Shown here in pieces: positions 28,603 through 49,190 of a stretch of DNA of 64,000 nt (the stretch's first letter is position 1; every line of letters begins with the position of its first letter). The stretch covers positions 4,092,001 through 4,156,000 of the forward strand of contig NZ_CP031598.1 in assembly GCF_008728195.1 (NCBI RefSeq). The letters run 5' to 3'. Under the pieces are notes generated by a model, which was not told the origin of the DNA, made no database searches, and was given only the letters and a program-made list of their open reading frames with translations. The stretch is from Roseovarius indicus (GTDB lineage: Bacteria; Pseudomonadota; Alphaproteobacteria; Rhodobacterales; Rhodobacteraceae). Both the position numbers and the translations under genes were made by a program.

Positions 28603-29511
28603 TTACTTGAATGCGCTGTCGAGGTTGGAAAGCGTTCGGGCGTGGACTGCCTCGACGGCGCCGCGGCCGTTGTTGGCGTTATGCGACGAGACCACCACGT
28701 TGTCGAAGCCGAGCAGGCTGTGGCCGGCAGGTAGGGGTTCGTCTTCGAACACGTCGAGCGCCGCGCCCCCAAGGTGACCACTTTGAAGGGCGTCCACGAG
28801 AGCCTTCGTGTCGACCAGCGGACCGCGGGCCACGTTGGCGACGATGGCACCCGGCTTCATGCTTTTGAGCAGGTCGGCATTGACCAGATGGTGGTTTTCG
28901 GGCGTGAGCGCACAGGCGAGGCAGAGCACGTCCGCCGCCTTGGCCACCTCTACGACGGACTCGGAGCCGTCAACGAAAGGATCGGAAAAGCGCACGTTCA
29001 TTCCGAAGGCCACGCCGAGTTCGCCGATCCGCCGGCCGATCGCACCGTAGCCGATCATCCCCAGCGTTGCGCTTTTCAGTTCGAGCCCCTGCGGTTTGGG
29101 CCAGCCGCCGGTGCGGACTTCCCGGTCGATCCGGCCCAGATGGCGCGTTACCATGAGGATCAGACCGATCGCCACTTCAGCAACCGCGTCGGCAAATGCC
29201 CCGGCCGCATTCAGGACGGGCACGCCAAGCTCTTTCGCCGAGGTCAAATCGATGCTGTCGATGCCAGTGCCCCATTTGGCGATGACCTTGAGGCGGGGCA
29301 GGGCCTTTTCAAGTACGGCCCGGGTGATCTGGTCGTCGCCGGCCAGCCAGCCGTCGATATCAACAACCAGGTCAAGGCAGCGTTCTTCGGTCAGAAACTG
29401 CTCGACATCGACCCAGATCGGCTCGTATCCGCGATCGCGCAATTCCTTGTCGAAACGGTCTCGTTCCTTGAGCATCATCATGTTAGTGACAAGGACGCGC
29501 GCAGGGTTCAT
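28603..29511 (-). CDS. D-isomer-specific 2-hydroxyacid dehydrogenase
   Basis: The 302-residue NAD-dependent dehydrogenase has the catalytic domain split around a Rossmann fold with GYGAIGRRIG (about 153). Family residues are Arg in VARGPLVD (about 228), Glu in DVFEDEPLP (about 257) and His in VSSHNAN (about 278). It resembles phosphoglycerate/glycerate dehydrogenases and would interconvert a D-2-hydroxy acid and its 2-keto acid. It is divergent from an oxidoreductase gene (143 bp). In this polysaccharide locus it may supply or oxidise a precursor sugar acid. It sits just right of IS110 copy 1. Confidence 0.85.
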   Translation of the reverse strand: MNPARVLVTNMMMLKERDRFDKELRDRGYEPIWVDVEQFLTEERCLDLVVDIDGWLAGDDQITRAVLEKALPRLKVIAKWGTGIDSIDLTSAKELGVPVLNAAGAFADAVAEVAIGLILMVTRHLGRIDREVRTGGWPKPQGLELKSATLGMIGYGAIGRRIGELGVAFGMNVRFSDPFVDGSESVVEVAKAADVLCLACALTPENHHLVNADLLKSMKPGAIVANVARGPLVDTKALVDALQSGHLGGAALDVFEDEPLPAGHSLLGFDNVVVSSHNANNGRGAVEAVHARTLSNLDSAFK

Positions 29512-29653
29512 GTCAGTAGCTCCGCCAACTAGTAATGCAAGTTGACACGCTCTATAAGACGGCTAAGACACGTCCACAAGCGACGAAGTCGCTGCAGCAA
29601 ATACCAGTTTGAAATCGACGCATGGTCGCGTCTTGATCTTCCGGGGACATTCA

Positions 29654-30691
29654 ATGTTGAAATTTGGAATTATTGGCTATGGCAAAATGGGGCAGACACG
29701 TCATTCAGCCATTCTCAGGACGGATGTGGGCGTTGTGACGGCCATCTACGGCTATCCGGGCGACCCGGTACCGGAGGACAAGTCGGTCGCCACGCCAGAA
29801 GACGTTCTGGTGGACAAGGACATCGAAGCCGTATTCGTCTGCACGATCAATTCGTTGAACAAGGACCTGACGATTGCGGCCCTGAAGAGCGGCAAGCACG
29901 TCTTCTGCGAGAAGCCGCCGGCCTTCACCTCGGCAGAGGTTGAAGAGATCCGCAAGGTTGAGGCCCAGTCAGGCAAGATTCTGATGTACGGTTTCAACCA
30001 CCGCCACCACGGCGCGGCCGTGAAGATGCGTGAGATCGTTGACGAGGGCGAGCTGGGCAAGGTTCTCTGGATGCGCGGACGCTACGGCAAGTCTGTGGAT
30101 GAGGATTACCTTTCGACATGGCGCGCCGACCCGAAGCTTTCCGGCGGTGGCATCCTAATCGACCAAGGCATCCACATGCTCGACCTGTTCCTCTACCTCG
30201 GCGGCGACTTCGACCAGGTGCAGGCCATGGTCTCGCACCTCTACTGGCACCTGCCGGGGATCGAGGACAATGTGTTCATCCAGTTGCGGAACTCCGAGAC
30301 GGGGCGCTGTGCTTCGCTGCACTCCACCATGATCCAGTGGCGGCACCTGTTTGCGCTCGAAGTTTTCATGGAGCGTGGCTACATGGTGCTCAACGGTCTG
30401 AAGACCTCCTCCAACACCTACGGGGCGGAACAGTTGATTGTCGCGCGCAACCGGACCAAAGCGCCAGCCGCATCGTGGGAGCAGGAAAGCTCGCTGACCT
30501 ACGATAAGGACGAAAGCTGGGATCGGGAAGCGCGTGCTTTCTCGGACTGGATACTATCGGGCAAGCCGGGCATTGGTAGTGGCGACTCTCTAGGTGCGCT
30601 CAAGGTAATGAAACTGGTCGACGAGATCTACTCAACCGAACGCCACGTCGCGCCGCAGCTTTATAACAGGCTTAACGCGGCGACTGGCTAA
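29654..30691 (+). CDS. Gfo/Idh/MocA-family oxidoreductase
   Basis: The 345-residue protein opens with the dinucleotide fold IIGYGKMGQTRH (about 5-16), then KHVFCEKPPA (about 90), the family EKP motif with the catalytic lysine, and GGGILIDQGIHMLDL (about 172) with the conserved Asp/His pair. Such enzymes oxidise or reduce sugars and sugar-nucleotides with NAD(P). The ATG at 29654 was chosen as it starts directly at the Rossmann strand. It is divergently arranged with the hydroxyacid dehydrogenase, suggesting a shared precursor pathway. Substrate unknown. Confidence 0.88.
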   Translation: MLKFGIIGYGKMGQTRHSAILRTDVGVVTAIYGYPGDPVPEDKSVATPEDVLVDKDIEAVFVCTINSLNKDLTIAALKSGKHVFCEKPPAFTSAEVEEIRKVEAQSGKILMYGFNHRHHGAAVKMREIVDEGELGKVLWMRGRYGKSVDEDYLSTWRADPKLSGGGILIDQGIHMLDLFLYLGGDFDQVQAMVSHLYWHLPGIEDNVFIQLRNSETGRCASLHSTMIQWRHLFALEVFMERGYMVLNGLKTSSNTYGAEQLIVARNRTKAPAASWEQESSLTYDKDESWDREARAFSDWILSGKPGIGSGDSLGALKVMKLVDEIYSTERHVAPQLYNRLNAATG

Positions 30692-31082: not shown

Positions 31083-33185
31083 TCATCCCGAATCAGCAGG
31101 TTGCCCCTTTCTGCGCGCATCCATCAACTCTGCAATCCTCTTGGCCACGCTGCTGGTTTCCAGACCCGATGCACGCAACTGTCCCATAGCTTTTTCACGC
31201 AGGTCGGGGTCGCTTTCCGGCAGAGATATTGCCAGTTCCGCAAATCCCGTAACACTCGGATTGTGACTCAGCTCAGCGCCAACCCACATCCATTTGCGCG
31301 CTAGGTCGTCGGACTTCGGCAACCCGCCGGCTCCGGTCAAATATGCATCCGCGACGGCGTAGCTGCGGTTACCCGGCGGGCTTTCCGACGTCTTCATAGC
31401 AATGAGAGCCAGCGCATTTTCTTGCTCGGCGGGCGCGCCAAAGCTGCGGGAGATCATCGCGAACGCAGCCGCTTCCGAAAACCTGTTTTGCGATACCTCC
31501 ACGGCAGCCGCACGAGAGACTGTGACCGGAGCTGCTACAGAATTCTTCCGTTCTCCATTGGCGACGAAAAAACGCGCGATCTTATTGTAGCCCTCATCGT
31601 CAATGGCCTTGTCGGCTCGGCCGTCATCAAGCTGCGCTATCGCTTTCGAGAAAACGGAACCGGCCGATGTATCCGAAAACCGCCCATGCGCCAGGCCATC
31701 CACAGTCTGCTGGCTTACGAAATTGCGCGTTGCGCCCCTGCGAGATGGCACAGTTCTCGCCAACTGCTTGTCCTTTGAATTGAAAACGTCACGAAGGTGC
31801 GCATCCGGAAGTCGCTCGGCTGGGAGCGGTCTGCTGTCAGCGATGAAGAAACCATCCGAAATGACCCGCCAACCGAACGCAATCGCACGCGCAAGCGCTT
31901 CGGGTACCTCGTCCTCCCCTGCTGTTTCCGACCACGCCATTAGCGCTCGGGCGGATGCGAATGCGTCTAAGCCCGCGTGATAGGATCGATAGAGCGGGCT
32001 CTCTCGAAACCAGGGGCTAGCCGCCCAGCGCGTTTCCACACCCGTCCATGCATCCTTCGCATCAAACTGCATTTCACCACTCAGGGTCGTCGCAATCATG
32101 GTTTCGATGTCTGACCGGTATCCATAATTGATTATATCACTTATGTGCAGCGGAATGCCGGCTCGCACCATTCGTACAGATACAACACCCTCCAGCGGCG
32201 AGTATGGACCGGAGGGTTGTGGTACGTCCTGAAGGACTGGTCGAAACGCCTCGATATGCGGAGCGCATTTGTCCGTGCGAAGCTTGAAAATGCAATCTGC
32301 ACCTCCCGCAGCGTCTATTCCACGCTGTAAGGCTGCCGCTTGTATCCACGCAACCCACATCGCCAGGGGCCTGATCGACTGCGGCGGGCACTCTGATTCC
32401 ACGATGTCCACACCTGAGGAAGTAAGGTCCTCTCTCAGGCCGGGATATCGGTCGATTTCTCCATACCATGTCGACAGGACAATCTTCTCGAGCAGCCCTT
32501 CTCCCCTTAGGTTGACCGCCTTGTGCAAGGTTGCGTATGCGTCACTGATGTCCCGAAGACGCCCAGTGATCACTCCGGCCGTGCGCGGACGGACCGGGAC
32601 ACACTTGGAGAACGCGTCATACTCATCGGGAGTGCCACTGAATGCGACATCGTCCGAGCCGATATGGTGGTACCGGATGTTTTGGCCCGCTTCGATTAGC
32701 AGATTGTAGAGGGGGACAACGTAGCGCTCGCCACCTTGCAGCTCGGACAGGCCGACGCCCTCGGTCCTACTGTAAGTGTTCAAAAAAGACTGGACTGTGC
32801 GGAAATGATACAAACCGGTGGAACAGAGATCCGAGATTCTCGTCTTTTCCGCGACCTCCGCAACCTTCGCGCTCGGGTCTTTTTCATCGGCAGGACGCAC
32901 AAAGGACCAGTGATCGCCCGGAGCCGAAAAGGTCTCAAGGTAGCCGTCAACTCCATTTACGTCGAAGTGTTCGGGAAAGCGAAAACTGCGCCGCATCGAG
33001 TCAGTATTGAAGATCGTCAGAGGTTTCTGAAAGTCGCATTCCGAATGGCGGAGGCCATTAGCAACGGTCTCGGCTTGGACCGACGTCGGGGCGTCGCATG
33101 ATGCGAATAACGGCCGTAACACCTTCGAGTCGGTGCACGCCCTGCACCCCAGACAACCTCGACAGCGCGTTCGCGTGATCCCCAT
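31083..33185 (-). CDS. WavE-type glycosyltransferase fused to a nucleotidyltransferase-like remnant
   Basis: The 700-residue frame has three parts. Residues about 35-170 match the C-terminal half of sugar-phosphate nucleotidyltransferases (LTIFNTDS, then KTRISDLCSTGLYHF, and YVVPLYNLLIEAGQNI), while the N-terminal part with the G-x-G-x-R nucleotide loop is missing. Residues about 180-420 resemble WavE-family LPS glycosyltransferases, with FKLRTDKCAPH as the acidic motif. The C-terminal about 250 residues are helical and unassigned. The gene faces the SGNH-like gene divergently. The true start is uncertain; the nucleotidyltransferase part is probably degenerate or a structural relic. Confidence 0.6.
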   Translation of the reverse strand: MGITRTRCRGCLGCRACTDSKVLRPLFASCDAPTSVQAETVANGLRHSECDFQKPLTIFNTDSMRRSFRFPEHFDVNGVDGYLETFSAPGDHWSFVRPADEKDPSAKVAEVAEKTRISDLCSTGLYHFRTVQSFLNTYSRTEGVGLSELQGGERYVVPLYNLLIEAGQNIRYHHIGSDDVAFSGTPDEYDAFSKCVPVRPRTAGVITGRLRDISDAYATLHKAVNLRGEGLLEKIVLSTWYGEIDRYPGLREDLTSSGVDIVESECPPQSIRPLAMWVAWIQAAALQRGIDAAGGADCIFKLRTDKCAPHIEAFRPVLQDVPQPSGPYSPLEGVVSVRMVRAGIPLHISDIINYGYRSDIETMIATTLSGEMQFDAKDAWTGVETRWAASPWFRESPLYRSYHAGLDAFASARALMAWSETAGEDEVPEALARAIAFGWRVISDGFFIADSRPLPAERLPDAHLRDVFNSKDKQLARTVPSRRGATRNFVSQQTVDGLAHGRFSDTSAGSVFSKAIAQLDDGRADKAIDDEGYNKIARFFVANGERKNSVAAPVTVSRAAAVEVSQNRFSEAAAFAMISRSFGAPAEQENALALIAMKTSESPPGNRSYAVADAYLTGAGGLPKSDDLARKWMWVGAELSHNPSVTGFAELAISLPESDPDLREKAMGQLRASGLETSSVAKRIAELMDARRKGQPADSG

Positions 33186-33331
33186 CGCTGCCAGAAGTCA
33201 TCCGGCCAGCAACGTGAGGCCGGGAAACGAGCGCTGTCAGGGCACCTTGACGCGCGAGTCGCTACAACGTATTGCGAAAAAGTCCGTCCAACGCGCGGTT
33301 AAGCCCATTCAACCAAGGCACAGGATATCGA

Positions 33332-34405
33332 ATGAAAACTGCCCTTCTCGGAACGTCGAATCTTGTAATGAAGAATGGGTTCTCGTCGGGATTTCAATAT
33401 GCTCTTCCCAAATCGCAGATCGACAATTTTTCAGTCGGAATCGGTGGAGTATTTCTGAATGAAGGGATCGAAAAAGTAGAGCGCGGCGACTATGACGTGG
33501 TGGTCATAGACTGTGCGGTGAATGATGAAATTCTCGCGCAACGCAAACCTGAGCTTCAGAGAATTTTCCTTCGGAACTTCGAAAATCTAATTTTTCGCAT
33601 TTGCCGATCCGGCAGTATACCGCTTGTGGCCATTCTCCCCCGCCTTGAATGGCTTGAGAACAACCAGGCGCCTCCCGTCGCCAATTCCTACATGTCGTTC
33701 TGCCAGGATAATTCCATTCCCTTCCTTAACGGTTACTCGCTCATACGCCGCGTCCTGGATATCGAGACCTCGTTGACTTTAGCCGACTTGTTCAACAACG
33801 CGGCGCACTTGAAACGGCCGCTCGCAGGTATCATCGGTTCGATGATGGGTATCGAGGCCCGAAAGCTTAAGCAATTTACCACGCAGAAGCGTGAAATCAG
33901 GTCTTCCGCAGAATTTAGATACGTTCCTTTTACCCATGATGCGGAACAGACCGGTGTCGTGGTGCACAAGAACTCCCTGCGCTGCGACAAACTTCGAAAA
34001 CTCTCCGAAGGAGAAAGCTTGTCAGTCCCATTGGCGCCCGGCGCAAAAGTAGCAGCGGTCTTGTATAATTCGAACGTTTCTGACGGAACGCTGATAGCGG
34101 AAGCAGCGGGCACCCGCTGCACGTTGATTGTGTCTTCCAAGAACGATAGCCCGCATTCCAAGTATCAAATTGGCGGTGTCGTTACCAACTGGAGTTACAA
34201 AAACGATAAAGACGTTACGGTGACAGTCTCACTGTCGGAAACCGAGGAAGGAAAATCGTACTTTGAGCTTCTGGGACTTGTGGTACTCAGAGATAAGAAT
34301 CGCCGAACTCAAATCGAACTGCCCCAGCTGAAGGATTACGAGGTCAGTGCACGAATGGCTGCTCTCCCGCCCGCGATTGCCGTAGCAGCCCTGACGAAAA
34401 CCTGA
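33332..34405 (+). CDS. SGNH-hydrolase-like protein of the polysaccharide locus
   Basis: The 357-residue protein starts MKTALLGTSNL, where GTSN takes the place of the SGNH block I serine motif. DCAVNDE near residue 68 fits block III (G-x-N-D type) with Asn. A basic residue-rich linker separates this N-terminal domain (1-185) from a C-terminal beta-rich half with VVTNWSYKND. It may be a carbohydrate O-acetyl esterase or transferase. The final Asp-His of block V is not clear, so activity is doubtful. It lies 14 bp before the sulfotransferase gene. Confidence 0.55.
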   Translation: MKTALLGTSNLVMKNGFSSGFQYALPKSQIDNFSVGIGGVFLNEGIEKVERGDYDVVVIDCAVNDEILAQRKPELQRIFLRNFENLIFRICRSGSIPLVAILPRLEWLENNQAPPVANSYMSFCQDNSIPFLNGYSLIRRVLDIETSLTLADLFNNAAHLKRPLAGIIGSMMGIEARKLKQFTTQKREIRSSAEFRYVPFTHDAEQTGVVVHKNSLRCDKLRKLSEGESLSVPLAPGAKVAAVLYNSNVSDGTLIAEAAGTRCTLIVSSKNDSPHSKYQIGGVVTNWSYKNDKDVTVTVSLSETEEGKSYFELLGLVVLRDKNRRTQIELPQLKDYEVSARMAALPPAIAVAALTKT

Positions 34406-34419: not shown

Positions 34420-35460
34420 ATGAAGACGCTCGTCATTCACATTGGATGCCACAAGACAGGCACCACCAGCCTTCAGAACTACTTGCATGAAAACTCAGAG
34501 ACATTGAAATCGGATGGCATCCATTATTTGGCAGCCGGGCGTGGCAAACGAATTTCGAGCCACAAGCCTATGGCGATCGACCTGCAGCAATCGGGGAAGC
34601 AGCACGACAGAGGTCCATGGCGTGCAGCGGCAGACGAGATAAAAGCATCCGAAACAAGCGAGATATTCGTGATGTCGGCCGAGGGCTTTTGCCTCGTAGA
34701 GCCGGACATTTTGCACGGCGCTCTCCGCGATGTTGCCGATACAGGGACGGCGATAAAGGTTGTCTGTTACGTCCGCCCGCACGCGGCCGCGATCGCTTCG
34801 CTGTTCTCGCAAACGGCGAAGTTCGGTCGCCAGACCCCAATCTCCGATTACATCAAAATTACCGCCCGGAATAACCTGTTCCGGTATCATACCCAGTACA
34901 CTCAATGGTCTGCAATCTTCGGGGAAGAGAATGTTTCTTGGAGACCGTACATCAAGTCCCGTCTGACAGGTGGCGACGTGATAGAAGATTACCTGGCAGA
35001 ACTTGGTTACGACGTCGAAAACAAGCCCTTCAAACCAGCGTCGGATAATTCTAACGTGTCTCCCGGACATGGGGCATTGGCTCAGATCGCCCAGATATGG
35101 CGTTTTGCGAAAGCTGCCAAAGGCAGGAAAGACGAGTTCGAGCCAGACTTCCGAATCCGGCTTGGCGAGTATCTGATATCGGAAATTTCCAGCCTTCACG
35201 CAAACGATCAGAAGTTCCGCCTTCCTGCCGACGACTACGCTAGCGTCGTGGAACTGTACCATGAAGACGCAAGTCTGCTGGACAAACAGGTCTTCGGAGA
35301 GCCGATTTTCGAAAAAGCGCTCCTTGAGTACGAACCCGGTCTGGACACATTCACAATGGACCCGCGGGACATTCTCGGAGATAAAACCGGCGAACAAGCT
35401 TTGAGATACGCGAAAATAATTGGCGAGGTTATCGAACTGTCGGAACGTTCAGGCAAATAA
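34420..35460 (+). CDS. Sulfotransferase-like protein
   Basis: The 346-residue protein opens with a P-loop (HIGCHKTGTTSLQNYL, about residues 7-22), the PAPS 5'-phosphosulfate-binding motif of the sulfotransferase superfamily. A second nucleotide-binding segment, VVCYVRPHAAAIAS (about 110), fits the 3'-phosphate-binding loop. The rest is helical. It would transfer sulfate from PAPS to a saccharide. It is 14 bp downstream of the SGNH-like gene and 42 bp upstream of an acyltransferase, so a small decoration operon is likely. The sequence is typical of the divergent bacterial sulfotransferases and the acceptor is unknown. Confidence 0.75.
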   Translation: MKTLVIHIGCHKTGTTSLQNYLHENSETLKSDGIHYLAAGRGKRISSHKPMAIDLQQSGKQHDRGPWRAAADEIKASETSEIFVMSAEGFCLVEPDILHGALRDVADTGTAIKVVCYVRPHAAAIASLFSQTAKFGRQTPISDYIKITARNNLFRYHTQYTQWSAIFGEENVSWRPYIKSRLTGGDVIEDYLAELGYDVENKPFKPASDNSNVSPGHGALAQIAQIWRFAKAAKGRKDEFEPDFRIRLGEYLISEISSLHANDQKFRLPADDYASVVELYHEDASLLDKQVFGEPIFEKALLEYEPGLDTFTMDPRDILGDKTGEQALRYAKIIGEVIELSERSGK

Positions 35461-35502
35461 CGCCACTCCGACGGGTGAAATTTTCAAATCAGGAGACTTC
35501 CG

Positions 35503-36114
35503 ATGTCTTTATTAGAAGAGGGTTACGAGTGCTATCGCGAAGGCGTATTTGTGAGGCGTTCTGCTGAAAGTACGAGCTTCACCTTGGGAAACGTAGTTGT
35601 GGCGAAAGATTCCCAGATCGCAATCGATATCAAGAATGGTGCGACAGTGGATATTCGCAATCTGAAGGTGAACGGAGCGGCCTTCACCACAGTGGGCGAG
35701 AACTCCAAGGTTCGCGGGATGAACCTTCAGGCCAGAGGCGCAGGGGTACAGATCAATATTGGTTCCAATTTCCGCTGCGGAAATCTTTTGCTGGTCGCGC
35801 AATTCGGGAATGTCGATATCGGTGACAACGTGCTATTCTCGCACGGCATCACGATCCGCACATCAGATATGCACAGCGTTTTTGACACGAAAACAGGAGA
35901 GCGGATCAATCCTCCTCAGGACGTCTCAGTTTCTGATCAGGTATGGATTGGCCAAGACGTCGTGATAGGCAAAGGCGCAAGGATTGGCCGAGATAGTATC
36001 GTGGCCGCGCGTGCCTTTGTTTCGGGCACCGTTGATGAAAACACGCTTGTAGGTGGAACGCCGGCACGCGTTATTCGTAGAGATGTGACGTGGTCGCGTG
36101 ACGATGCGCCATAG
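35503..36114 (+). CDS. Hexapeptide-repeat (LbH) acyltransferase
   Basis: The 203-residue protein is a left-handed beta-helix O- or N-acyltransferase. Hexapeptide-type turns run from about residue 25 to 190, with the acceptor-site loop HGITIRTSDMHSVFD (His near 125) and the closing QVWIGQDVVIGKGARIGRDS and VGGTPARVI typical of maltose/galactoside acetyltransferases. The start is supported by AGGAG 8 bases upstream. It likely acetylates the polysaccharide using acyl-CoA in the cytoplasm. It follows the sulfotransferase gene on the same strand. Confidence 0.85.
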   Translation: MSLLEEGYECYREGVFVRRSAESTSFTLGNVVVAKDSQIAIDIKNGATVDIRNLKVNGAAFTTVGENSKVRGMNLQARGAGVQINIGSNFRCGNLLLVAQFGNVDIGDNVLFSHGITIRTSDMHSVFDTKTGERINPPQDVSVSDQVWIGQDVVIGKGARIGRDSIVAARAFVSGTVDENTLVGGTPARVIRRDVTWSRDDAP

Positions 36115-36230
36115 CTTGGGAACAACGCCCCGTCCATCAGTATTCAGAAGCTCCCAAGTTCAAGGCGCCTTCCCCAACCAGCGACCAAGACCCTGATATA
36201 TTTCCCTGATCTCCGCCGTTGCAATAAGGC

Positions 36231-39605: not shown

Positions 39606-39623
39606 ATCGACTTGGATAAAATC

Positions 39624-41762
39624 ATGACTAATGATCACCCTTCCGTTCTACTGGTTGTGGGACAGTCAGCGCTGGCGAACCGGTTTGAAAAGTCACGGGT
39701 GCACTCGATTTGGCGCGGGCTATGCCAGTGTGTGGAAACCTGGCGGCTTGAAGTCGCAACCACTTCAGACGAACGCTTTTCCGGCAAACGTTACGTGAAG
39801 ACCACCCCGGAAGCTCTCAAATCAGAGTTCTATACGTTCCTGGTAGAAAGCCAGGCCGAAACCGTGATCTTGGCTGGCGACTCCGATCTTACCGACGATC
39901 TCCTTGGGTCCGGTTTGCGTGTGATTTCGCTCGCAGACGGCTACGGCACGGTTCCGGAATGCGCGACAGAAATCTGGACGCGCCATGCCGACCAGATCGA
40001 CCCCGGTCTGATCGGTTCGCGTACCGTTGAAATCATACCCGATGCGTTCGAGCCGGCAACGGACAACGTCAGCCCCACGACCAGAGGCAACCGGATTGCA
40101 GTAATCGGCGACCCCGAGAGCCTGACGGATAATTCTCTGCAGAAAGTTACTAGGGACTTCAGCGAATTCGCAGTGACACCGGCATTCTCGGAGGCCCTTG
40201 CCCAGCGCGGCGTCGGCCCGCTATTCGTATTTGACACGGAGGGAGAAACACTTGAGGAGGCCGCTGCCTGTGCCATTCTCGGTACCGAAAGCAACATGGT
40301 ACCACTCCTGACTTGGTCAATGCTGAACGGGTGCAGCATTGTCTGGCCAGCGGGCCACGAATTGGAAGATGACAATCTGACCTGTATTGATCCGTTGGCG
40401 ACACTCAAGGCGATCTCCGATGCCCTGCAGGTAGAGATGCCGGACGACGAGGCAGAGACGGGCGCGCTCGTCGCCCGGAACCTCGAAACCGATATCTCGC
40501 TGGTAAGGGCGATGTTTCATCCCGCAGTTCGGCTCTATGACGCGATATGTGAATGCAAAGGAAGCGCTCCTGCCGGGTGCATAACGGGCCAGGTTCGGCT
40601 TGAGAAAGGGGACCCGGATGGACTCCTCAATGCTTGGATAACGGAGATGGCGCCTAATCCAAATTATGAGGGAGCGAGATTTCGGGGATCGGCTGCTTTG
40701 CGAGATGACGTCGACTTGGAAGATGTTATCGTCGATATCGACGCCTGGGGCTGGCATGTAGCAAGTATTAGAGTTCCCAGCGACCTCGAAGTACAAGTTG
40801 CCGGGCTCATCTCCATGTCCACCTTGCACGACAGATCCAAGGCCGAAGTGCAATACTGGAGCCGCATGCCAGACACGCGTATCCAGCTTGGCAAGAAGTT
40901 GTATCAGGAAGAACCGGTTCTTAGAGATGATGATGGTCCTTTTCTCTACCGTCAGACAGGCGATTTTCCGTTCAATCGGGACAGCCTGACCGTATTACCA
41001 CCAGAGAATTTCGGTCAAAAATTCACCCGGTTCCATCTCTTCAACAAGCGAAGCGTCTCATCCGTACTTCTTGAATCTTTGCGGGATAGTTACAGGGGCC
41101 GTGTGGGTTGGCTCATCGGAAATGGTCCCAGCGTCCGTCTGGAAGATCTCGACCAATTGGCAGAGTCAGAATGTCTTTGCTTTGGGTTTAATCGGTTCTA
41201 CCTAGCCCATGAAGACACGAAACTTCGCCCCAAATTCACGGTAACAGGCGACCTGCAGATGATCGAGGATTTCGGTCAGGAGGTGGTCGACAGTTCCGGC
41301 GGGACCGTCTTCGTAGCTCATGAGGAGGCGCCGGATCTTGTAGGCGACTACATCTGGGTCAGACAGATAAGCGTCTCCCCTTCACTTTTCTCTACCAACG
41401 CTGCCGACTTCGTGACGCCAGGCGGGTCCTCCGTCTATGTCGCGCTGCAGATTGGATATTATCTCGGTATTCGGAAGTGGTACATGTACGGGGCCGATTT
41501 TACTTTCAAGTTCATGCCGCCGCGGCGGGGTTCCAGCGCCTTCCGCACGGCCACCGGCGACGGCAATCACTTCATTTCAAACTACAGAAGCGGCCGCGCC
41601 TGGTGCCCGCCTTCTATCGAGAACATTCTTCCGTCATTCTATTCTGCACGCTTGGCGATGGAGATGGACGGCGGCTTTATTCGCAACGCCACGCGCGGGG
41701 GCAATCTGCACGTGTTCGAGCGTATGGATTTCGAGGATGCACTTGCGGATACGATCTCCTAA
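39624..41762 (+). CDS. Large protein with a sialyltransferase/DUF115-like C-terminal domain
   Basis: The ATG at 39624 is used (an upstream TTG is in the same frame), giving 712 residues. Residues about 490-712 match the Campylobacter CstI/CstII (GT42) and Maf/DUF115 layout: WLIGNGPSVRLEDLD, FGFNRFYL, then SSVYVALQIGYYLGIRKWYM, GADF and NHFISNYRSG with the conserved His. Residues 1-490 carry no family I can name. The N-terminal third has a beta-strand-rich start like a Rossmann fold. With a CMP-sugar synthetase 5 kb downstream, it is a strong candidate for the enzyme that uses the CMP-activated sugar. Function is inferred. Confidence 0.65.
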   Translation: MTNDHPSVLLVVGQSALANRFEKSRVHSIWRGLCQCVETWRLEVATTSDERFSGKRYVKTTPEALKSEFYTFLVESQAETVILAGDSDLTDDLLGSGLRVISLADGYGTVPECATEIWTRHADQIDPGLIGSRTVEIIPDAFEPATDNVSPTTRGNRIAVIGDPESLTDNSLQKVTRDFSEFAVTPAFSEALAQRGVGPLFVFDTEGETLEEAAACAILGTESNMVPLLTWSMLNGCSIVWPAGHELEDDNLTCIDPLATLKAISDALQVEMPDDEAETGALVARNLETDISLVRAMFHPAVRLYDAICECKGSAPAGCITGQVRLEKGDPDGLLNAWITEMAPNPNYEGARFRGSAALRDDVDLEDVIVDIDAWGWHVASIRVPSDLEVQVAGLISMSTLHDRSKAEVQYWSRMPDTRIQLGKKLYQEEPVLRDDDGPFLYRQTGDFPFNRDSLTVLPPENFGQKFTRFHLFNKRSVSSVLLESLRDSYRGRVGWLIGNGPSVRLEDLDQLAESECLCFGFNRFYLAHEDTKLRPKFTVTGDLQMIEDFGQEVVDSSGGTVFVAHEEAPDLVGDYIWVRQISVSPSLFSTNAADFVTPGGSSVYVALQIGYYLGIRKWYMYGADFTFKFMPPRRGSSAFRTATGDGNHFISNYRSGRAWCPPSIENILPSFYSARLAMEMDGGFIRNATRGGNLHVFERMDFEDALADTIS

Positions 41763-41806: not shown

Positions 41807-44800
41807 ATGATCAAAACCTCTTCCCCAATGCGCATCGCAATCGCTGGAACGAACAACGATTCTATGTATTCCGGCGGGCGCTATCACGCCCTGATTGTCG
41901 CCTATGCGCTCGCACGCATCGGGATGGATGTTACTTTCATAACGAACAAGCGTCCCCGGTTCGTCGATGATCTCGATCCTCTTGCACCGGGTCAGGTGAA
42001 ATATGTTTTCACGCCAGATTTCCGCAGTTCCATACCGAAGGAGAATTTTGATTACGTCATTCTGATACCGACCGGTATCTTCCTGCCGGAGTTTTACGAA
42101 GCAGTCTTCGAATTCGCCCGTGGCGCCAGGGCGCGCATGGCACTTATCAATTTCGAAAGCGGCAACTGGTTCAATGCAGTGTCGCCGGCACCGCGCGATC
42201 TTCGTTTGTGGGAGTATTGGCGCCGGGCGGTTGCCGAGTCTGGCTTGGTGATTTCGAGCCTGCGGACAAGCGACCTTTACGCGCGAGAGTTCTACGATGC
42301 CGTTAATCCTGAGGATCTGAGGTTCGAAGTATGCGGCCCGCCCATCAACAGCCTTGCGGCAGCGGGCGGCCTCAACAAGCCGAAAGACGGTTCCGTCATC
42401 GCGTTTGTTCGTTCGAGCGATGCCCACAAAGGAGGGGCAGACCTTCTCGAACTTGACCCCGAAATACTTGCCGGCAGAACGCTTAAGATCGTCGCCGGAG
42501 GTCCGATCGACTCTGTATTCGCCGAGGACTTGAAGGCGCGCTTCATACCGGCAGGCGCAAAAGTTGAGTTTCACACCGCGATTTCCGACGCCGAGAAGTT
42601 CGTTTTGATCGGAAAGGCCCAAGCACTGCTATTCCCCAGCCGTTTCGAAGGTTTCGGCTATCCGCCGGTCGAAGCCGCCTACATGGGAACGGAAGTCGCC
42701 TGCTACGATCTTGAAGTTCTTGAGGAAACCGTCGGATCTGTGGCGCATTTTGCGCCGGTCGGTGACGTTGCAGCCTTGGGAGATGCCCTGGCAGAAGCCT
42801 TGGAGCGGGAGCCAAGGCAGGAAACATTGCACGCCGCCGTCAGGTCCATCGTCGACATCGACGAGGTGGCGTTGCGTCTGTCCGATATCCTCTTGCGCAG
42901 CATGAACGCCATCCGCGCAACCCCTGATACACGTGGTCATGCCTGCTGGGGGCCGTTTGTTCTAAGCGATGCAGACGCGAACATCAACTCCGTCCCCGCC
43001 ATGCCAGCGCTATTGCGCAGTTTCCGGAAAACCGGCGAAAACGCCTACCTTCTCTCTGTCCTGATGTGCGCGCCGACCCGTCACGTCACCGGTACGATCG
43101 AAGGAAAGGTCATGGAAGCTGTGCCTGTGTGCATAAAGGAGATAGACAGGCGGTTCGGTGAAGTCATATTCGAGGTTTCCGCGCACCTACCGGACTGGAC
43201 GGATAAGGATAAGGAACTGACGATAACGCTGCGTGATGCTCACGGCGCGGTTGTGCTTCAAGAACAGATTCGACTGAAGCAGTCGGCGCAATCGCTGAAC
43301 GCGACGCTATCACTTACTGACTTGGAGGAAGAGCCCGGCCAAACCAAACTAACGCTCAAAGCCAGCAAGAATGTGGACCGAATATCCTTCTCTCATGACC
43401 AGATAACTTGGGTGCATGCCGATGTGGTCGAAGGGGACGTGGAGTTCATCGTTCCCCAGACCAACTTGCACATGAGTGATCCGGTTTTTTACCTGTTTGC
43501 GGACGACCAGATCATCGACGTTTTTTCCGGAGTGCCGCCCTTTCCCGGTCTCCATGCTCATATTCCCGTTCATGATCATGGTCAGGGTATTATCGAGATT
43601 GCCGACCTAACGAACGAACACTGGAATTGCGGTGTTCTGCGCCGCCCGGGCAACAAGAGCGCCGGGGTCGTTGCCTGCATCACGCCGCATCAATCAAGAA
43701 GACCGCATGCCGGTGACACGATACGCTTGGCTTCAGGCAGGATCGTCAGGATTGAATCGATAGACTACAAGGGCAAGGTTGCAAACCTCCATTTCGGCGT
43801 CGAGATCGACCCTGACAACGAGGGGTATCCCAACGCATTGGTCAGGGTCGACCGCGCTACCGGCGTGTCGCCGGTACATGTCTCTGCCGAGAACTGGTCA
43901 AAGGGCTTCTGGAGCGGTGACGGCACGTCAGGCTCGCGCGTTGTTCTCCTGCCGTATGAAGCCATAGACGCTTTTGATCCGTCGCTTCCGGTTTCGCTTG
44001 TCGTTGACGGCTCGAAAGAGATAGAAATCGAACGGTTCGTTGACAACGGCTACGGTTACGTCGCCCGACTGAGCGAACCGCTGAACGTGTTCGGTTCTGA
44101 AATGCCGGAGTTCGATCTCATACCCTCGACAAGCCATGTCGGGCTGGACCAACCCGCTGACGAAAGCGCAGACGGATGGCCAGACAAGCCCCATTGGTCG
44201 ATGGGTGACAAATCCGGCCGAATCATCAACCTGTCTCCTGGCGCCAGAGTTGTCAGGAACGACGCACTCATCTTTCAGGACGGATCGGTACGCGGTATTC
44301 AGGATATCGCGTTCGACAAGGCTGCTGTATACATTTTGCTCGATCTTGCCCCGGCTGCGGATCATGCACGTCCGGCGCGGCTCGCAAGTTTCCGTGAGAA
44401 ATCCGATCTTTGGCATGGTCAGTCCGTGTATCCTTCGCCCGTGGAAAACCCCGGCGCCAACAAGGTACTCCGGATGAGCGACAATTTCCGCAAAAGTCGT
44501 ATCGCATTGCCCCAGGTGCCCGCAAAGGATCGGCCACGGGTTCTTTTCGCGTCCATCGTTCCGCCAGATCCCGCGAACCAGGGCAACAGGATTGTTACCC
44601 GCAATTTTATCACGCACCTCATCTCCCAGGGGTTCGACGTTGACCTGCTTTTGGTCGGTCATGTTTTGCCCGAACGTATGTTCCACCAGTTCGGCGACCG
44701 CGTCCGTGTGTTTCCGTTGCCCTTTCCGAACTGGACGGCGGAGCCGTCCACTCGGCTGAGACGCCACGTAACCGAAGAATTGCGCCAGATGAACCGGTCG

Positions 44801-46762
44801 CCGGCGGAGTCGGAAATATTCGACAGGTTGCTAGAGGATGCCTCACATTACCATCCGTTCTACATCGTGCCGGATTCCGTTGTCCGCACGGCGCGTGCGC
44901 TGTACCGATCAAACGAATACCATTCGATTGTTTGCAATTACACGCATATGATCCGCATCGCTTGCGAACTCGCGCCAATACGCCCGCTCCCCCCGGTCAC
45001 CATCGTAACCCATGACGCCTTGTCACGCTTGCCACTCAAGTTCGATGGCAAGCCTTTTGATACGATGTACCGGCGCTGCACGCCCGACATGGAAAGGGAT
45101 GTGCTCAATGCCGTGCCGGGTGCAACCATCCTCGCCATCTCGACCAGCGAACAGGCCTACTTCAAAGAAATCGGGGTGACCAATCCAATCGAACTCTGCG
45201 AGTATGATGGCCTTAAGGAGTGTGCGCTTTACAAGGTCTTCCCCACGGCGTTCGACAAGCGGCGCCTGATCTTTCACGCCAGTAACAATCCAATGAACCA
45301 GGTCGCAATTGACTGGTTTCTCAACAATTGCTGGAGCAAGGTCCAGCGGGTCGTGTCTCACGCAAAGCTGGTAATATGCGGCGCGATTTCGCAGCACGTT
45401 GATGCTTCAATTCCCGGGATCGAACGGCATGGACCCGTCGAGCGCGAGACGTTGATGGGGCTGCTGGGCACAAGCAGCGTGGCCATCAATCCAACGCTTG
45501 TCGGCACCGGCCTCAAGATTAAGACCGTGGAAGCGATCTGCGCTGGTCTGCCCAGTGTCTGCCTGCCTGCGGCAATTGAAGGCTTGGAGGCGGTGGCCGA
45601 TGATTTCTGTATTCTAGCGGAAGATGCGCCATCCTTTGTCGACGCCTGCGTAAGACTTTTGACGGAAAAGGACACTTGGAACGGGTTGAACCAAAGTTCG
45701 ATGGCTCTCGCCCAGAAACGATTTTCCGAGGCCGCCATCTATGGCGCGGTTGATGCACGTATGGGCTGGGACAAAGGTACCGACGAGCGATTTGCGGCAG
45801 CAAGGTCCGAGTACTCGTTTTCGGAAGCTCCAAGCCTGGACGATCTGGTTAACTCAGTCAGCGAGACGGACAGGAGTAACATTACAACCGCGCGGCACCT
45901 TCAGTCGATAGGCAAGGTCAAATGGGCAAGCCATATCCTGAACAGAGCGAGTGAACAGTTGGAGTGCAACGGACCATTTGGCCTGTGGCTCAAGTCCGCT
46001 CAAACTGCAAATTTGGTTACCCCGCCTAGCATTGCGCTGAATTCAACCGCGCGATGCTTAGCCGAACGACCAACCGAGGGAGCTGCTTACGCAGAGGCAA
46101 TCAAGGCGGCGCTGGCTCAGAACGAAATGGAACTTGCCGAGAATATTTGGCAACACATGGCTCTGACCATGCCCGGGAGTCCGGCCTCTGCGCAGTTTGC
46201 AGAGGATATGGGCCTGTTACGCGGCACGTCCATTTCCGCTGGCTGGAAGCCATCACCACTCAGCATTCCTTTGAACTCGAAACGAGAGTTGAACACGCTT
46301 CTCTCAAAGGGCGATAAGGTCGGCCCCGGCTGGAGCTCGGTGGAACAATTGGGCGCCTGGACCTGTAGTCGCTATGCCCGACTTGACCTGACTTTTCCCG
46401 CAACAAACGCGCCACTCAAGCTTGTCCTGACTGGCCATCAACATCAGAAAGGCCAGGACTCTGGAGACCGCATTATCAGGTTTTCTATCGACGGCGCGGA
46501 CGTCGGGGTGGTAACGATTCCTTTCAACAGTCCCAGGCATAGCCTTGAGTTCGAAGTGCCGGCGCAGGGAGCTGAGGCTAGGACGTCGCTGACGATCTCG
46601 CTTGAAATACGCAACCCTTCCCCCCTGAGGCTGGAGACTGGCGAACTCAAAGACCCGCGGGCCATGGGGTACTCCCTTCGCGCCATTCTCTTGGAAGAGA
46701 AGTCCGAGAGGAAGAAGAAAAGGGCTGGCAAGTCACGCAGGTCTGCGAATTCCGGAGCGTAG
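41807..46762 (+). CDS. Giant two-domain glycosyltransferase (two GT4-like modules)
   Basis: The 1651-residue protein starts with a GT4-type glycosyltransferase (about 8-375; PSRFEGFGYPPVEAAYMG is the C-terminal nucleotide-sugar motif). A middle 500 residues follow with beta-sandwich-like segments. A second GT4-like module spans about 905-1320 (RVLFASIVPPDPANQGN opening and GTGLKIKTVEAICAGLPSV acceptor/donor loop). The end is helical, then a beta-sandwich-like domain and a basic C-terminus (KKKRAGKSRRS). Two fused transferases suggest a polymerase that adds alternating sugars. It follows the sialyltransferase-like gene by 44 bp. An ATG seven codons further in is an alternative start. Confidence 0.75.
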   Translation: MIKTSSPMRIAIAGTNNDSMYSGGRYHALIVAYALARIGMDVTFITNKRPRFVDDLDPLAPGQVKYVFTPDFRSSIPKENFDYVILIPTGIFLPEFYEAVFEFARGARARMALINFESGNWFNAVSPAPRDLRLWEYWRRAVAESGLVISSLRTSDLYAREFYDAVNPEDLRFEVCGPPINSLAAAGGLNKPKDGSVIAFVRSSDAHKGGADLLELDPEILAGRTLKIVAGGPIDSVFAEDLKARFIPAGAKVEFHTAISDAEKFVLIGKAQALLFPSRFEGFGYPPVEAAYMGTEVACYDLEVLEETVGSVAHFAPVGDVAALGDALAEALEREPRQETLHAAVRSIVDIDEVALRLSDILLRSMNAIRATPDTRGHACWGPFVLSDADANINSVPAMPALLRSFRKTGENAYLLSVLMCAPTRHVTGTIEGKVMEAVPVCIKEIDRRFGEVIFEVSAHLPDWTDKDKELTITLRDAHGAVVLQEQIRLKQSAQSLNATLSLTDLEEEPGQTKLTLKASKNVDRISFSHDQITWVHADVVEGDVEFIVPQTNLHMSDPVFYLFADDQIIDVFSGVPPFPGLHAHIPVHDHGQGIIEIADLTNEHWNCGVLRRPGNKSAGVVACITPHQSRRPHAGDTIRLASGRIVRIESIDYKGKVANLHFGVEIDPDNEGYPNALVRVDRATGVSPVHVSAENWSKGFWSGDGTSGSRVVLLPYEAIDAFDPSLPVSLVVDGSKEIEIERFVDNGYGYVARLSEPLNVFGSEMPEFDLIPSTSHVGLDQPADESADGWPDKPHWSMGDKSGRIINLSPGARVVRNDALIFQDGSVRGIQDIAFDKAAVYILLDLAPAADHARPARLASFREKSDLWHGQSVYPSPVENPGANKVLRMSDNFRKSRIALPQVPAKDRPRVLFASIVPPDPANQGNRIVTRNFITHLISQGFDVDLLLVGHVLPERMFHQFGDRVRVFPLPFPNWTAEPSTRLRRHVTEELRQMNRSPAESEIFDRLLEDASHYHPFYIVPDSVVRTARALYRSNEYHSIVCNYTHMIRIACELAPIRPLPPVTIVTHDALSRLPLKFDGKPFDTMYRRCTPDMERDVLNAVPGATILAISTSEQAYFKEIGVTNPIELCEYDGLKECALYKVFPTAFDKRRLIFHASNNPMNQVAIDWFLNNCWSKVQRVVSHAKLVICGAISQHVDASIPGIERHGPVERETLMGLLGTSSVAINPTLVGTGLKIKTVEAICAGLPSVCLPAAIEGLEAVADDFCILAEDAPSFVDACVRLLTEKDTWNGLNQSSMALAQKRFSEAAIYGAVDARMGWDKGTDERFAAARSEYSFSEAPSLDDLVNSVSETDRSNITTARHLQSIGKVKWASHILNRASEQLECNGPFGLWLKSAQTANLVTPPSIALNSTARCLAERPTEGAAYAEAIKAALAQNEMELAENIWQHMALTMPGSPASAQFAEDMGLLRGTSISAGWKPSPLSIPLNSKRELNTLLSKGDKVGPGWSSVEQLGAWTCSRYARLDLTFPATNAPLKLVLTGHQHQKGQDSGDRIIRFSIDGADVGVVTIPFNSPRHSLEFEVPAQGAEARTSLTISLEIRNPSPLRLETGELKDPRAMGYSLRAILLEEKSERKKKRAGKSRRSANSGA

Positions 46763-46957: not shown

Positions 46958-47623
46958 ATGAAAAGTGTTGCGATGATACCCGCCCGCATGGGCAGTCAGC
47001 GTCTTCCCAAAAAAAATCTGGCAGACTTCCACGGCTCGCCCCTGATTGTTCACGCGATACGTAAGTGTTTTGCGACAGGTCTATTCGATGAAGTCTGGGT
47101 CAACTCCGAGCATCCGGATTTCGGGCCAATTGCTGAAGCAGAAGGAGCGCATTTTCATCAGCGTCCAGAAGAGCTTGGCAACAACAACGCAACCTCGGAG
47201 CAGTTCATCGCCGAGTTTCTCGAAAAACAGGATTGCACCTTCATATACCAAGTCCATTCTATCGCGCCGCTTCTGTCGGTGTCAGACCTAAAAAAGTTCG
47301 TCGCTGAAATGCAGACTGACCAATACGACGCGCTCATGAGCGTGGTCGATGAAAACCTTGAATGCCTGTACAAGGATGAGCCTGTCAACTTTACCTTTGC
47401 CGAAAAGACCAACAGCCAATATCTCATACCGGTCAGGCGCATCGTTTGGGCGGTAACGGCATGGAGACGGGAAACCTATCTTGGGGCGATCAAGTCTGGA
47501 AATTGTGCAACGTATTCGGGGCGCATCGGATACATATCGGTCGGGCGCATGGCTGGGCATGTCATCAAAACCCAGGAAGACTTGGATGTCGCAGCTGCGC
47601 TTTACGACATTTTGGCGGACTAA
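46958..47623 (+). CDS. CMP-sugar synthetase (acylneuraminate/Kdo cytidylyltransferase family)
   Basis: The 221-residue protein opens with the CTP-binding loop IPARMGSQRLPKKNL (about 7-21), typical of NeuA and KdsB-type enzymes, and has an acidic motif, SEHPDFG, near 49 and a C-terminal KTQEDLDVA. It activates a keto-acid sugar (sialic, legionaminic or Kdo-like) as CMP-sugar. The class between NeuA and KdsB cannot be resolved here. No neuB/kdsA condensing enzyme is in the window. It is 195 bp after the giant transferase gene and 17 bp before fkbM. Confidence 0.85.
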   Translation: MKSVAMIPARMGSQRLPKKNLADFHGSPLIVHAIRKCFATGLFDEVWVNSEHPDFGPIAEAEGAHFHQRPEELGNNNATSEQFIAEFLEKQDCTFIYQVHSIAPLLSVSDLKKFVAEMQTDQYDALMSVVDENLECLYKDEPVNFTFAEKTNSQYLIPVRRIVWAVTAWRRETYLGAIKSGNCATYSGRIGYISVGRMAGHVIKTQEDLDVAAALYDILAD

Positions 47624-47640: not shown

Positions 47641-48459
47641 GTGACCATTGATACGACCCCATACTGGAAAGCCCTCTGCAAGACAGGCTCACCTGCAAAG
47701 CTTGCGCAGTTCCGCGAGGCAATTATTGAACATTCCTACAGATACAGGCTAGCCAGTGGCGACACCGCCGTCGATGTGGGGGCTCACCGAGCACGGCACA
47801 CCATTCCTATGGCGGAAACCGTTGGTCGGCAGGGCACCGTCTTCGCAATTGAGGCGGCGCCCGAAATGCAGAAGAAACTGCGAGCTCAAGTCAATCACTC
47901 CGGCGTCAAAGACATACGGAATATTGTAATATATTTAGACTATGCTTTGTCCGACAAGGAAGCAAAAGCAGAGTTCTTCTATCTCCCCAAGCACGGCTCA
48001 GGACTGAGTTCGCTGTCCAAACCGGCGAATGTTCCGGAAAACGCAGAGGTCGTGGTCGAGAAAGTTGAGATGCGTCGGCTTGACGACCTGATAGATGCAC
48101 ATACACCTGTCCGTTTTATCAAGGCCGACATCGAAGGCGCCGAATACCATGCGTTTCGCGGCGCAAAGAAACTGATTTCGGCCAACCGACCGATGATGGT
48201 GTTTGAACACCAGGCTCAAAATGATGCAGAGCGCTTCGGCTATACTGAGCAGGATTTTTTCGACCTTTGGCGTGATATTGATTATTCCCTTTACAGCGTC
48301 TTCGGTCGGGCGGTCACAACAGAAAATTGGGGGGAACCCAACGCTCATGACATTTTCGCCGTACCGAACGAGGAAAAAGAAGTGCACAGGGAGATCATCT
48401 CGTTGAGCATCGTTCGCGCCATCGAAGATCTTCTCAAGGAAGATGACGAAAAGGCGTAG
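47641..48459 (+). CDS. FkbM-family SAM methyltransferase
   Basis: The start is a GTG; the next ATG would lose the N-terminal helices. The 272-residue protein has a SAM-binding segment DTAVDVGAHRARHTIP (about 40-55; a G-x-x-x-G variant), EAAPEM (about 71), and the FkbM signature RFIKADIEGAEYHAFRGAKKL (split; about 157-178). It would O-methylate a sugar. The SAM loop has AHRARH in place of the usual GxGxH, a small deviation. It lies in the operon after the CMP-sugar synthetase. Confidence 0.82.
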   Translation: MTIDTTPYWKALCKTGSPAKLAQFREAIIEHSYRYRLASGDTAVDVGAHRARHTIPMAETVGRQGTVFAIEAAPEMQKKLRAQVNHSGVKDIRNIVIYLDYALSDKEAKAEFFYLPKHGSGLSSLSKPANVPENAEVVVEKVEMRRLDDLIDAHTPVRFIKADIEGAEYHAFRGAKKLISANRPMMVFEHQAQNDAERFGYTEQDFFDLWRDIDYSLYSVFGRAVTTENWGEPNAHDIFAVPNEEKEVHREIISLSIVRAIEDLLKEDDEKA

Positions 48460-48494
48460 CCGCCAAGCTTCCCCTTGAATCTGCGGCGGGCGAG

Positions 48495-49190
48495 ATGACG
48501 CTTGAAACCTTACCTTTTTCAAACAAGGGCGCGGCAGAGGCGGCATGCTCTGACTGGCTGGCCGGCAAGTTGGTGTCGGCGTTGGAGAATACTCCGGATC
48601 GCGTTACCGTTCTTGTGTCAGGCGGATCCACACCCACCCGTGTCCTGCCAGCCATACTCACACGTGACCTCGATTGGAACCGAATTGACTGCGTCGCAAG
48701 CGACGAACGCATAGTAGCCCCCTCTGATCCAGACTCGACGGAAGGCATGATCCACCGTCTCTTCTCCGAGGCTGGCCGACCACTCAATTACGCAGGCCTC
48801 GGTAGCGCCACTGTTCCAGATGCAGCCCTCGCTGAATGGCGACGCGCCCGCGCTGACATTGCATGGCCTCCGGCAGTGGGCCTGCTCGGAATCGGGGAAG
48901 ACGGGCATACCGCCTCTTTGTTTCCCGGACGACCTGAAGCGGAGGATCCATTCTTGGAGGATGCGCTGGTTCCCGAAACCGCCCCTCACCGCCACCCTCG
49001 CGTAACCCTTGGTCTAAAGACACTCGGCCAGTGCCCCGCACTGGGCCTCGTAATCGCCGGAGCCGGCAAACGGCAGGCTCTGAAGTTGGACCCTGCCGGC
49101 CTTTTCCGAAGTCTTGCGGTGATCACCCGCGTTATGGTGTTCTCGGAAGAGGAGCCTACTGGGAGAAATAGACTAACGAGTGTAAAATGA
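48495..49190 (+). CDS. 6-phosphogluconolactonase-type (NagB/SOL) protein
   Basis: The 231-residue protein has the family phrases VLVSGGSTPT (about 39-48) and GIGEDGHTASLFPG (about 131-144) of 6-phosphogluconolactonase. The catalytic His is in GEDGHTAS. Here it sits within the polysaccharide locus rather than beside zwf, so it may act on another sugar lactone. Its last codons (TSVK) reach the end of an IS3 remnant at about 49190, so the natural C-terminus may have been altered. It is 35 bp after fkbM. Confidence 0.8.
   Translation: MTLETLPFSNKGAAEAACSDWLAGKLVSALENTPDRVTVLVSGGSTPTRVLPAILTRDLDWNRIDCVASDERIVAPSDPDSTEGMIHRLFSEAGRPLNYAGLGSATVPDAALAEWRRARADIAWPPAVGLLGIGEDGHTASLFPGRPEAEDPFLEDALVPETAPHRHPRVTLGLKTLGQCPALGLVIAGAGKRQALKLDPAGLFRSLAVITRVMVFSEEEPTGRNRLTSVK

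Follow-up and report, generated by a model that had tools for sequence, protein, structure and literature searches.

Gene content of the locus

The stretch of DNA analysed here (the window, 64 kb, C1:4092001-4156000 in the 6.17-Mb genome of Roseovarius indicus) carries a polysaccharide island with a cassette of genes for a D-2-hydroxyacid dehydrogenase (2HADH), a Gfo/Idh/MocA oxidoreductase, an MhpD-like protein, a phosphatase, a GmhA-like SIS isomerase and a NeuA-like cytidylyltransferase (Table 1). An earlier, sequence-only reading had listed these genes together with a gluconolactonase-like gene and a sialyltransferase-like protein that it did not locate, and had suggested that the hydratase (MhpD), isomerase and phosphatase might build a keto-acid sugar to be activated with cytidine monophosphate (CMP). 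Family searches of the window proteins recovered all of them in place, with a 4-base ATGA overlap coupling the MhpD-like and phosphatase genes as described; the gluconolactonase-like gene matched PF01182, one of two such matches in the genome (the stronger one lies outside the window locus), and the sialyltransferase-like protein was taken to be the large DUF115/MptE-like protein, the nine best PDB matches of whose family profile are sialyltransferases.

Table 1. Features of the window, with positions counted from its first base; cassette and adjoining genes are given first
Feature	Position	Strand	Family match or remark
2HADH, SerA/PdxB-type	28603-29511	-	PF02826, 1.1e-51
Gfo/Idh/MocA oxidoreductase	29609-30691 (open reading frame); chosen ATG start 29654	+	PF01408/PF22725
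MhpD-like protein, distinct subfamily	37499-38221	+	
Inositol-monophosphatase-fold phosphatase	38218-39009	+	PF00459, 3.2e-37
GmhA-like SIS isomerase	39042-39605	+	PF13580 (SIS_2), 1.5e-9
Large protein, C-terminal DUF115/MptE-like, GT42-like domain	39612-41762	+	PF01973, weak, under cut-off
1651-amino-acid (aa) protein, glycosyltransferase group 1 domains	41807-46762	+	PF13692, PF00534
NeuA-like cytidylyltransferase, distinct subfamily	46958-47623	+	PF02348 (CTP_transf_3), 1.6e-22
FkbM-type methyltransferase	47641-48459	+	PF05050, 1.4e-18; between cytidylyltransferase and lactonase
6-Phosphogluconolactonase (6PGL)-type protein	48495-49190	+	PF01182, 2.5e-32; GIGEDGHTASLFPG present
IS110 transposases	27122-28198 and 58642-59718		near both island ends
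700-aa protein	31083-33185		no Pfam or NCBIfam match
377-aa protein	33272-34405		no Pfam or NCBIfam match
Gene with P-loop-like start HKTGTTS	34420		no Pfam match
Sulfotransferase-type gene, Stf0	36231 (region 34420-37055)		
IS66	50465-52096		
N-acetylglucosamine 2-epimerase family gene	53017-54150	-	beyond the cassette
rve integrase-core genes, two	55713-56636 and 57472-58500		
Sulfotransferase-type gene, Sulfotransfer_3	59942-60811		

The nearest PDB sequence to the 2HADH was 1wwk, a phosphoglycerate dehydrogenase, and its Arg, Glu and His positions, which we take to be catalytic, were kept across 11 aligned sequences, while EKPP and DQGIHM were invariant in 10 aligned sequences of the Gfo/Idh/MocA protein. 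Catalytic-type positions of these two enzymes and of the phosphatase, presumably corresponding to the known catalytic sites, were kept in most aligned sequences. The SIS isomerase had phosphoheptose isomerases as its nearest PDB sequences and scored 72.8 with TIGR00441, below the curated cut-off of 209; judged by these scores it is a relative of GmhA and not GmhA proper. The 6PGL-type protein, which contains DGHTASLFPG, was over the cut-off for PF01182 and reached 106 bits with TIGR01198, short of the cut-off of 124. No Pfam match was obtained with the MhpD-like protein alone, and with TIGR03220 it scored 21 bits against a cut-off of 409; in the family sample its scores lie far from those of ordinary MhpD. 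The profile of its subfamily matched the 2-keto-4-pentenoate hydratase 1sv6 at 7.5e-13, and 1sv6 was also the top fold match of its AlphaFold2 model (predicted local distance difference test, pLDDT, 96). It thus has the MhpD/FAH superfamily fold with a Glu-Glu-Glu site, K47, E92, E94, E114 and D134 being invariant in 17 sequences; the glutamate triad, presumably the metal site, is kept, and so is the lysine.

Conservation and co-occurrence of the gene set

The profile of the MhpD-like subfamily was scanned, without regard to neighbouring genes, against a collection of one genome per species (84,980 species) and revealed 23 loci (designated L, with genomes designated G); the scan relied on a pair of short peptide patterns and may have missed further loci, so that 23 is to be read as at least 23. 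MhpD had homologues of the full set of five partners (SIS isomerase, Gfo/Idh/MocA protein, 2HADH, phosphatase and cytidylyltransferase) nearby in 19 of the 23 loci and in none of 20 ordinary MhpD loci, 18 of which had no partner and two of which had one. These controls were the next-best ordinary MhpD matches, one per genome, from a family sample of 394 genomes, G545 and G550 being skipped. Partner queries included variants from L016, L021, L023, L028, L036 and L038, so that the matches in these six loci are in part built in; with the window proteins alone as queries (E 1e-5), the count was again 19 of 23. The partners in Paenibacillus were found without Paenibacillus proteins among the queries.

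The family sample, taken to represent Rhodobacteraceae in the GTDB sense, includes Rubrimonas cliftonensis (L008), Alterinioella nitratireducens (L006) and Heliomarina baculiformis (L016). In it, both subfamilies, that of the cytidylyltransferase and that of MhpD, were confined to the same five genomes, with at least 387 bits for the former, at least 268 bits for the latter (the next MhpD scored 83) and gaps of 0.8 to 8.7 kb between the two genes. This survey used a cytidylyltransferase cut-off of E 1e-35 and scored at most seven candidates per genome; the threshold of 268 bits for MhpD was chosen once the gap to 83 was evident, and four of the five genomes (those of the window, L008, L006 and L016) supplied rows of the profiles, whereas G523 did not. 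The trio of hydratase, phosphatase and isomerase keeps company with the cytidylyltransferase gene, the pattern for which the sequence-only reading had proposed to look, and the opposite pattern, a trio mostly without CMP-sugar genes, was not seen, as a cytidylyltransferase homologue was present in 20 of the 23 loci (weak in L019).

At the same cut-off, the cytidylyltransferase subfamily was represented by its own genome and one weaker match in 385 genomes of the class, and by its own genome and two weaker matches in 398 genomes of the phylum. Among 72,556 plasmid records (E 1e-20) it was found in three, from Sinorhizobium fredii, Leisingera and Paenibacillus, all with the other four partners; MhpD was present in the first two and not in Paenibacillus. 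It was also noticed that proteins of Pseudoalteromonas spongiae and of an Alloacidobacterium metagenome-assembled genome, both beyond the Alphaproteobacteria, were 57-58% identical to the cytidylyltransferase of the window. Phages gave no match to the cytidylyltransferase, and viral contigs no relative of MhpD.

The setting of the cassette could by itself have brought unrelated genes together. A tRNA-Arg(tct) and an adjoining phage integrase border the island (window ~24512-27122), insertion sequence (IS) elements are present (Table 1), and the guanine-plus-cytosine (GC) content is 53-58% at 28-48 kb of the window versus 63-70% at 1-24 kb, so that the locus looks like a lower-GC mobile island. 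However, the loci counted above come from several alphaproteobacterial groups, and the explanation by chance neighbours, which the contrast of 19 of 23 with 0 of 20 makes highly improbable, was rejected on the control loci.

Layouts and the five-enzyme core

The order Gfo-SIS-MhpD-phosphatase was kept in L006-L008, L010-L013 and S. fredii (L036); in all of these the 2HADH gene adjoins, and so does the cytidylyltransferase gene, except in L011. The window differs in having the order MhpD-phosphatase-SIS, with the Gfo and 2HADH genes 6.8 kb upstream and the cytidylyltransferase gene behind two large genes. A second arrangement (type B) was found in 11 roseobacter loci (L016-L018, L020-L024 and L026-L028), in which the order is SMP-30 lactonase-DUF115-2HADH-cytidylyltransferase-phosphatase-SIS-methyltransferase-like-Gfo with MhpD divergent, L020 being exceptional in having no DUF115 protein. 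The Leisingera plasmid (L037) has the type-B arrangement, its genes being annotated as 'SIS domain', 'NTP transferase', 'phosphoglycerate dehydrogenase' and 'hypothetical protein'. The methyltransferase-like protein, whose N-terminal part is rich in cysteine, occurs in all 11 type-B loci, L025 and L038 (e.g., L016:7572-8642), and its presence suggests that the sugar may be methylated in those versions.

Paenibacillus cellulosilyticus (Bacillota, L038) carries DUF386-cytidylyltransferase-SIS-2HADH-phosphatase-methyltransferase-like-Gfo, and neither MhpD nor a lactonase was found in the 20.6 kb read there. Because this set has all five partners and no MhpD, the core appears to consist of five enzymes, with MhpD seen together with the core in Alphaproteobacteria only and looking like an add-on modifying step. 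This bears on the view that MhpD, out of the trio of the sequence-only reading, is the key step, converting a sugar acid into the keto acid by hydration or dehydration. That view would fit the retained glutamate triad and the way in which the subfamily follows the set, both across the family survey and from locus to locus. We nevertheless hold it to be improbable, since a five-partner set exists without MhpD and since the MhpD-fold enzymes known so far take 2-keto acids as substrates. The co-localisation seen by the sequence-only reading is confirmed, and more strongly than that reading had put it. Its interpretation is supported in part: a dedicated route to a CMP-keto acid other than by NeuB or KdsA is the best reading, in line with the 20 loci having a cytidylyltransferase and with the shared five genomes of the family, but the analysis does not support the trio as its essential part, the dehydrogenases being equally constant. 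Most likely the dehydrogenases, and not the hydratase, would make the keto acid.

Two other contexts were noticed. In L009 and L015, both from Cohaesibacter, MhpD lies in a different gene context that is common to both. In another genome of the phylum (L039:8786-14924), a cytidylyltransferase-cupin fusion, a short-chain dehydrogenase/reductase (SDR), a 2HADH, a 3-dehydroquinate (DHQ)-synthase-like protein, a second SDR, a Gfo protein and a SIS protein are encoded one after another; this version may serve to make a branched or cyclic acid.

Cytidylyltransferase and candidate transferases

The AlphaFold2 model of the cytidylyltransferase (pLDDT 90) had mouse CMP-N-acetylneuraminate (CMP-Neu5Ac) synthetase as its best fold (template modelling score 0.84), followed by synthetases of CMP-deaminoneuraminate (CMP-Kdn) and CMP-pseudaminate (CMP-Pse), the best folds being 1qwj and 9t4z; by fold and by sequence family it groups with the NeuA/CMP-ulosonate synthetases. 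The motif GHVIKT or a near variant was present in 20 aligned cytidylyltransferases including that of the window (GYVVKT in L014, GIIIKV in L025; L019 was left out). By alignment reading, it is placed where NeuA has its C-terminal Asp residues, presumably a metal motif, so that the donor chemistry or specificity of the enzyme could differ.

The family profile of the large DUF115 protein matched the sialyltransferase 1ro8 best (E 1.7e-5), with further weak matches to an MptE-type enzyme (0.0038) and to 5mu5 (0.042); we take the sialyltransferase matches to be GT42 and 5mu5 to be Maf, so that the protein shows GT42/Maf-type likeness by weak matches. GT42-like DUF115 proteins were near 16 of the 23 loci and near none of the 20 controls. 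In S. fredii, two PF05159 capsule genes, presumably of the KpsC/KpsS family, precede the cassette instead. The set is thus accompanied by likely CMP-ulosonate transferases of two unrelated kinds, and these neighbours suggest that its product may be a CMP-ulosonate donor. Flagellin glycosylation, raised by the Maf likeness, was set aside with the best profile matches being sialyltransferases; flagellin genes were not searched for.

The substrate of the NeuA-like enzyme may instead be no 2-ulosonic acid but an aldonic acid, a phosphonate or a sugar acid that is branched or cyclic, activated for use by DUF115 or other transferases. With the departure from NeuA at the metal motif, and with a distant relative (L039) that is cupin-fused and lies near a DHQ-synthase-like protein and two SDRs, this has something in its favour, but the best folds are synthetases of CMP-sialate, CMP-Kdn or CMP-Pse, and sialyltransferase-like and PF05159 proteins adjoin the cassettes. 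In addition, a DUF386 (YhcH/YjgK/YiaL) gene (L038:9520-9999) overlaps the cytidylyltransferase gene of Paenibacillus; its E. coli relative is presumably a sialate anomerase, which would fit a 2-ulosonic acid. We therefore regard a non-ulosonic substrate as unlikely.

No condensing enzyme recognised in the cassette

To our knowledge, the characterised routes to CMP-keto-acid sugars (3-deoxy-D-manno-octulosonic acid, Kdo, and sialic, legionaminic and pseudaminic acids) all add three carbons from phosphoenolpyruvate (PEP). No PEP-condensing enzyme was recognised in the cassette, NeuB (PF03102) had no match in the whole genome, and the one KdsA (C1:405727-406494) lies ~3.7 Mb from the cassette in contig coordinates; the sequence-only reading had likewise seen no enzyme of either type here and had allowed for a housekeeping kdsA elsewhere.

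That KdsA offers another explanation, in which Kdo from housekeeping synthesis, or some other ulosonate derived from PEP, is modified by the cassette, and the dehydrogenases and MhpD give an altered CMP-Kdo-like product. The cytidylyltransferase belongs to the NeuA/KdsB superfamily, as such an origin would allow, and Maf enzymes are reported to accept CMP-Kdo (PMC11339370). On the other hand, the cassette keeps a GmhA-like isomerase and a phosphatase, which suggests that its precursor is a sugar phosphate, and Kdo would have no need of a lactonase. Moreover, one version occurs in Paenibacillus, a Gram-positive, in which Kdo would not be expected. Modification of Kdo is therefore judged rather unlikely, somewhat more so than a non-ulosonic substrate.

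Lactonases

Lactonases belonging to either of two unrelated families were found in 15 of the 23 loci, compared with two of the 20 controls. The SMP-30 type was present in 11 of 11 type-B loci (PF08450 was confirmed in two), and the 6PGL type in the window, in L006, where it adjoins the cytidylyltransferase gene, in L008, and in L019, where it adjoins MhpD; in L040, a 6PGL-type gene adjoins those for a 2HADH and a distant cytidylyltransferase. Two unrelated lactonase families in one place are the strongest hint for a lactone step, and a housekeeping copy could serve in loci having none.

A proposed oxidative route

We propose that the cassette encodes a dedicated, PEP-independent route in which a whole sugar phosphate would be oxidised to a 2-ulosonic acid and activated with CMP for a surface glycan, and give this about an even chance (roughly 0.5). 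Reactions, their order and the sugar are read from the enzyme families. The SIS isomerase would convert a ketose phosphate to an aldose phosphate (GmhA itself acts on sedoheptulose-7-phosphate), the Gfo/Idh/MocA enzyme would oxidise carbon 1 to give an aldonolactone, and a lactonase, of the 6PGL type in the window and the SMP-30 type in roseobacters, would open it. The SerA/PdxB-type 2HADH would then oxidise the hydroxyl at carbon 2 to give a 2-keto-aldonate, much as PdxB oxidises 4-phosphoerythronate; the inositol-phosphatase-fold enzyme would remove the terminal phosphate, the NeuA-like enzyme would attach CMP, and the GT42-like DUF115 protein, or the PF05159 proteins in S. fredii, would transfer the sugar. 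The MhpD-like enzyme, absent from at least one version, would act on the 2-keto-acid intermediate, most simply as a 4-dehydratase or as a tautomerase/epimerase.

By analogy, an MhpD-type enzyme could enolise a 2-keto-aldonate at carbon 3 and then expel the hydroxyl at carbon 4 (giving a 4-deoxy sugar after reduction), shift a bond or epimerise. The E. coli K3 capsule is reported to contain a 4-deoxy-2-hexulosonic acid (Dengler 1988). A doubtful but possible extension is that bacteria have a purely oxidative route to CMP-2-ulosonic acids, in which the alphaproteobacterial MhpD would subsequently remove the carbon-4 hydroxyl to give a CMP-4-deoxy-2-ulosonic acid of the K3 type.

Several observations weigh against the oxidative route. 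MhpD was found without the set in L009 and L015 (one partner each), L014 has three partners and no Gfo or SIS protein, L011 has four and no close cytidylyltransferase, a more distant one lying on a contig of equal length, and the five partners of L019 are scattered and in part weakly similar; a relative of the cytidylyltransferase occurs without the set in L030, and distant versions such as L039 keep other enzymes. No lactonase was found at E 1e-8 in L007, L010, L012, L013, L014, L025, L036 and L038, the L025 match being 29% at 5e-5 only; that of L011 is weak (29%, other strand), and homologues occur in the two control loci mentioned. The Asp metal motif of NeuA is not kept, the logic of the core works without MhpD, and housekeeping KdsA could supply Kdo.

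As judged from titles and the starts of abstracts among the matches listed, no open-licence PMC text describes this gene set, and the route is apparently undescribed. If true, it would be a second biochemical solution to the same class of donor and could explain capsule ulosonic acids of obscure origin. The cassette would also give a class of function to genes that now bear only generic names such as those seen in the Leisingera plasmid (L037).

Other genes of the island

The sulfotransferase-type genes (Table 1), including the one at 34420 with the P-loop-like start, suggest that the surface glycan may be sulfated. A homologue of the 1651-aa glycosyltransferase adjoins the cassette in L014. 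It was also noticed that GSCFA and WcbI-family genes adjoin in the window (61785-63859), and that in S. fredii (L036:17319-19343) the two are fused in one open reading frame ~1.7 kb past the cassette cytidylyltransferase.

Comparison with known systems

The sugar of the E. coli K3 capsule is of the kind that a 2-ketoaldonate would yield by 4-dehydration if the 3-keto group so formed were subsequently reduced. Its gene cluster was sought in 5426 E. coli genomes with a plasmid 'capsular polysaccharide biosynthesis' gene as query, which matched 196 genomes; no such set was seen in the annotation around seven E. coli capsule loci (19-20 kb per side, from 60 of 202 records), none of which was identifiable as K3, and the Paenibacillus cassette DNA had no match in E. 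coli genomes, a weak test across such distance.

In the Kdo pathway (KdsD-KdsA-KdsC-KdsB), a SIS isomerase, a phosphatase and a CMP transferase occupy the same logical places as in the cassette, whereas the cassette has no KdsA-type enzyme, a phosphatase of different fold and, instead, two dehydrogenases and often a lactonase. With the nonulosonic acid pathways (NeuB/LegI/PseI with NeuA/LegF/PseF, and Maf or GT42 transferases) it shares the NeuA fold and, beside many copies, the sialyltransferase-like DUF115 protein; unlike them, it has no recognised PEP-condensing enzyme and lies in a genome without NeuB. Oxidative sugar catabolism likewise brings together a dehydrogenase, a lactonase and an FAH-superfamily enzyme, but the cassette combines these with isomerase, phosphatase, cytidylyltransferase and glycosyltransferase genes. 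The Epd-PdxB steps of vitamin B6 synthesis share with the proposed route the logic of aldose phosphate to aldonate phosphate to 2-keto-aldonate phosphate and a SerA/PdxB-type dehydrogenase, whereas the cassette has a Gfo-family enzyme and a lactonase in place of Epd and would end in a nucleotide sugar.

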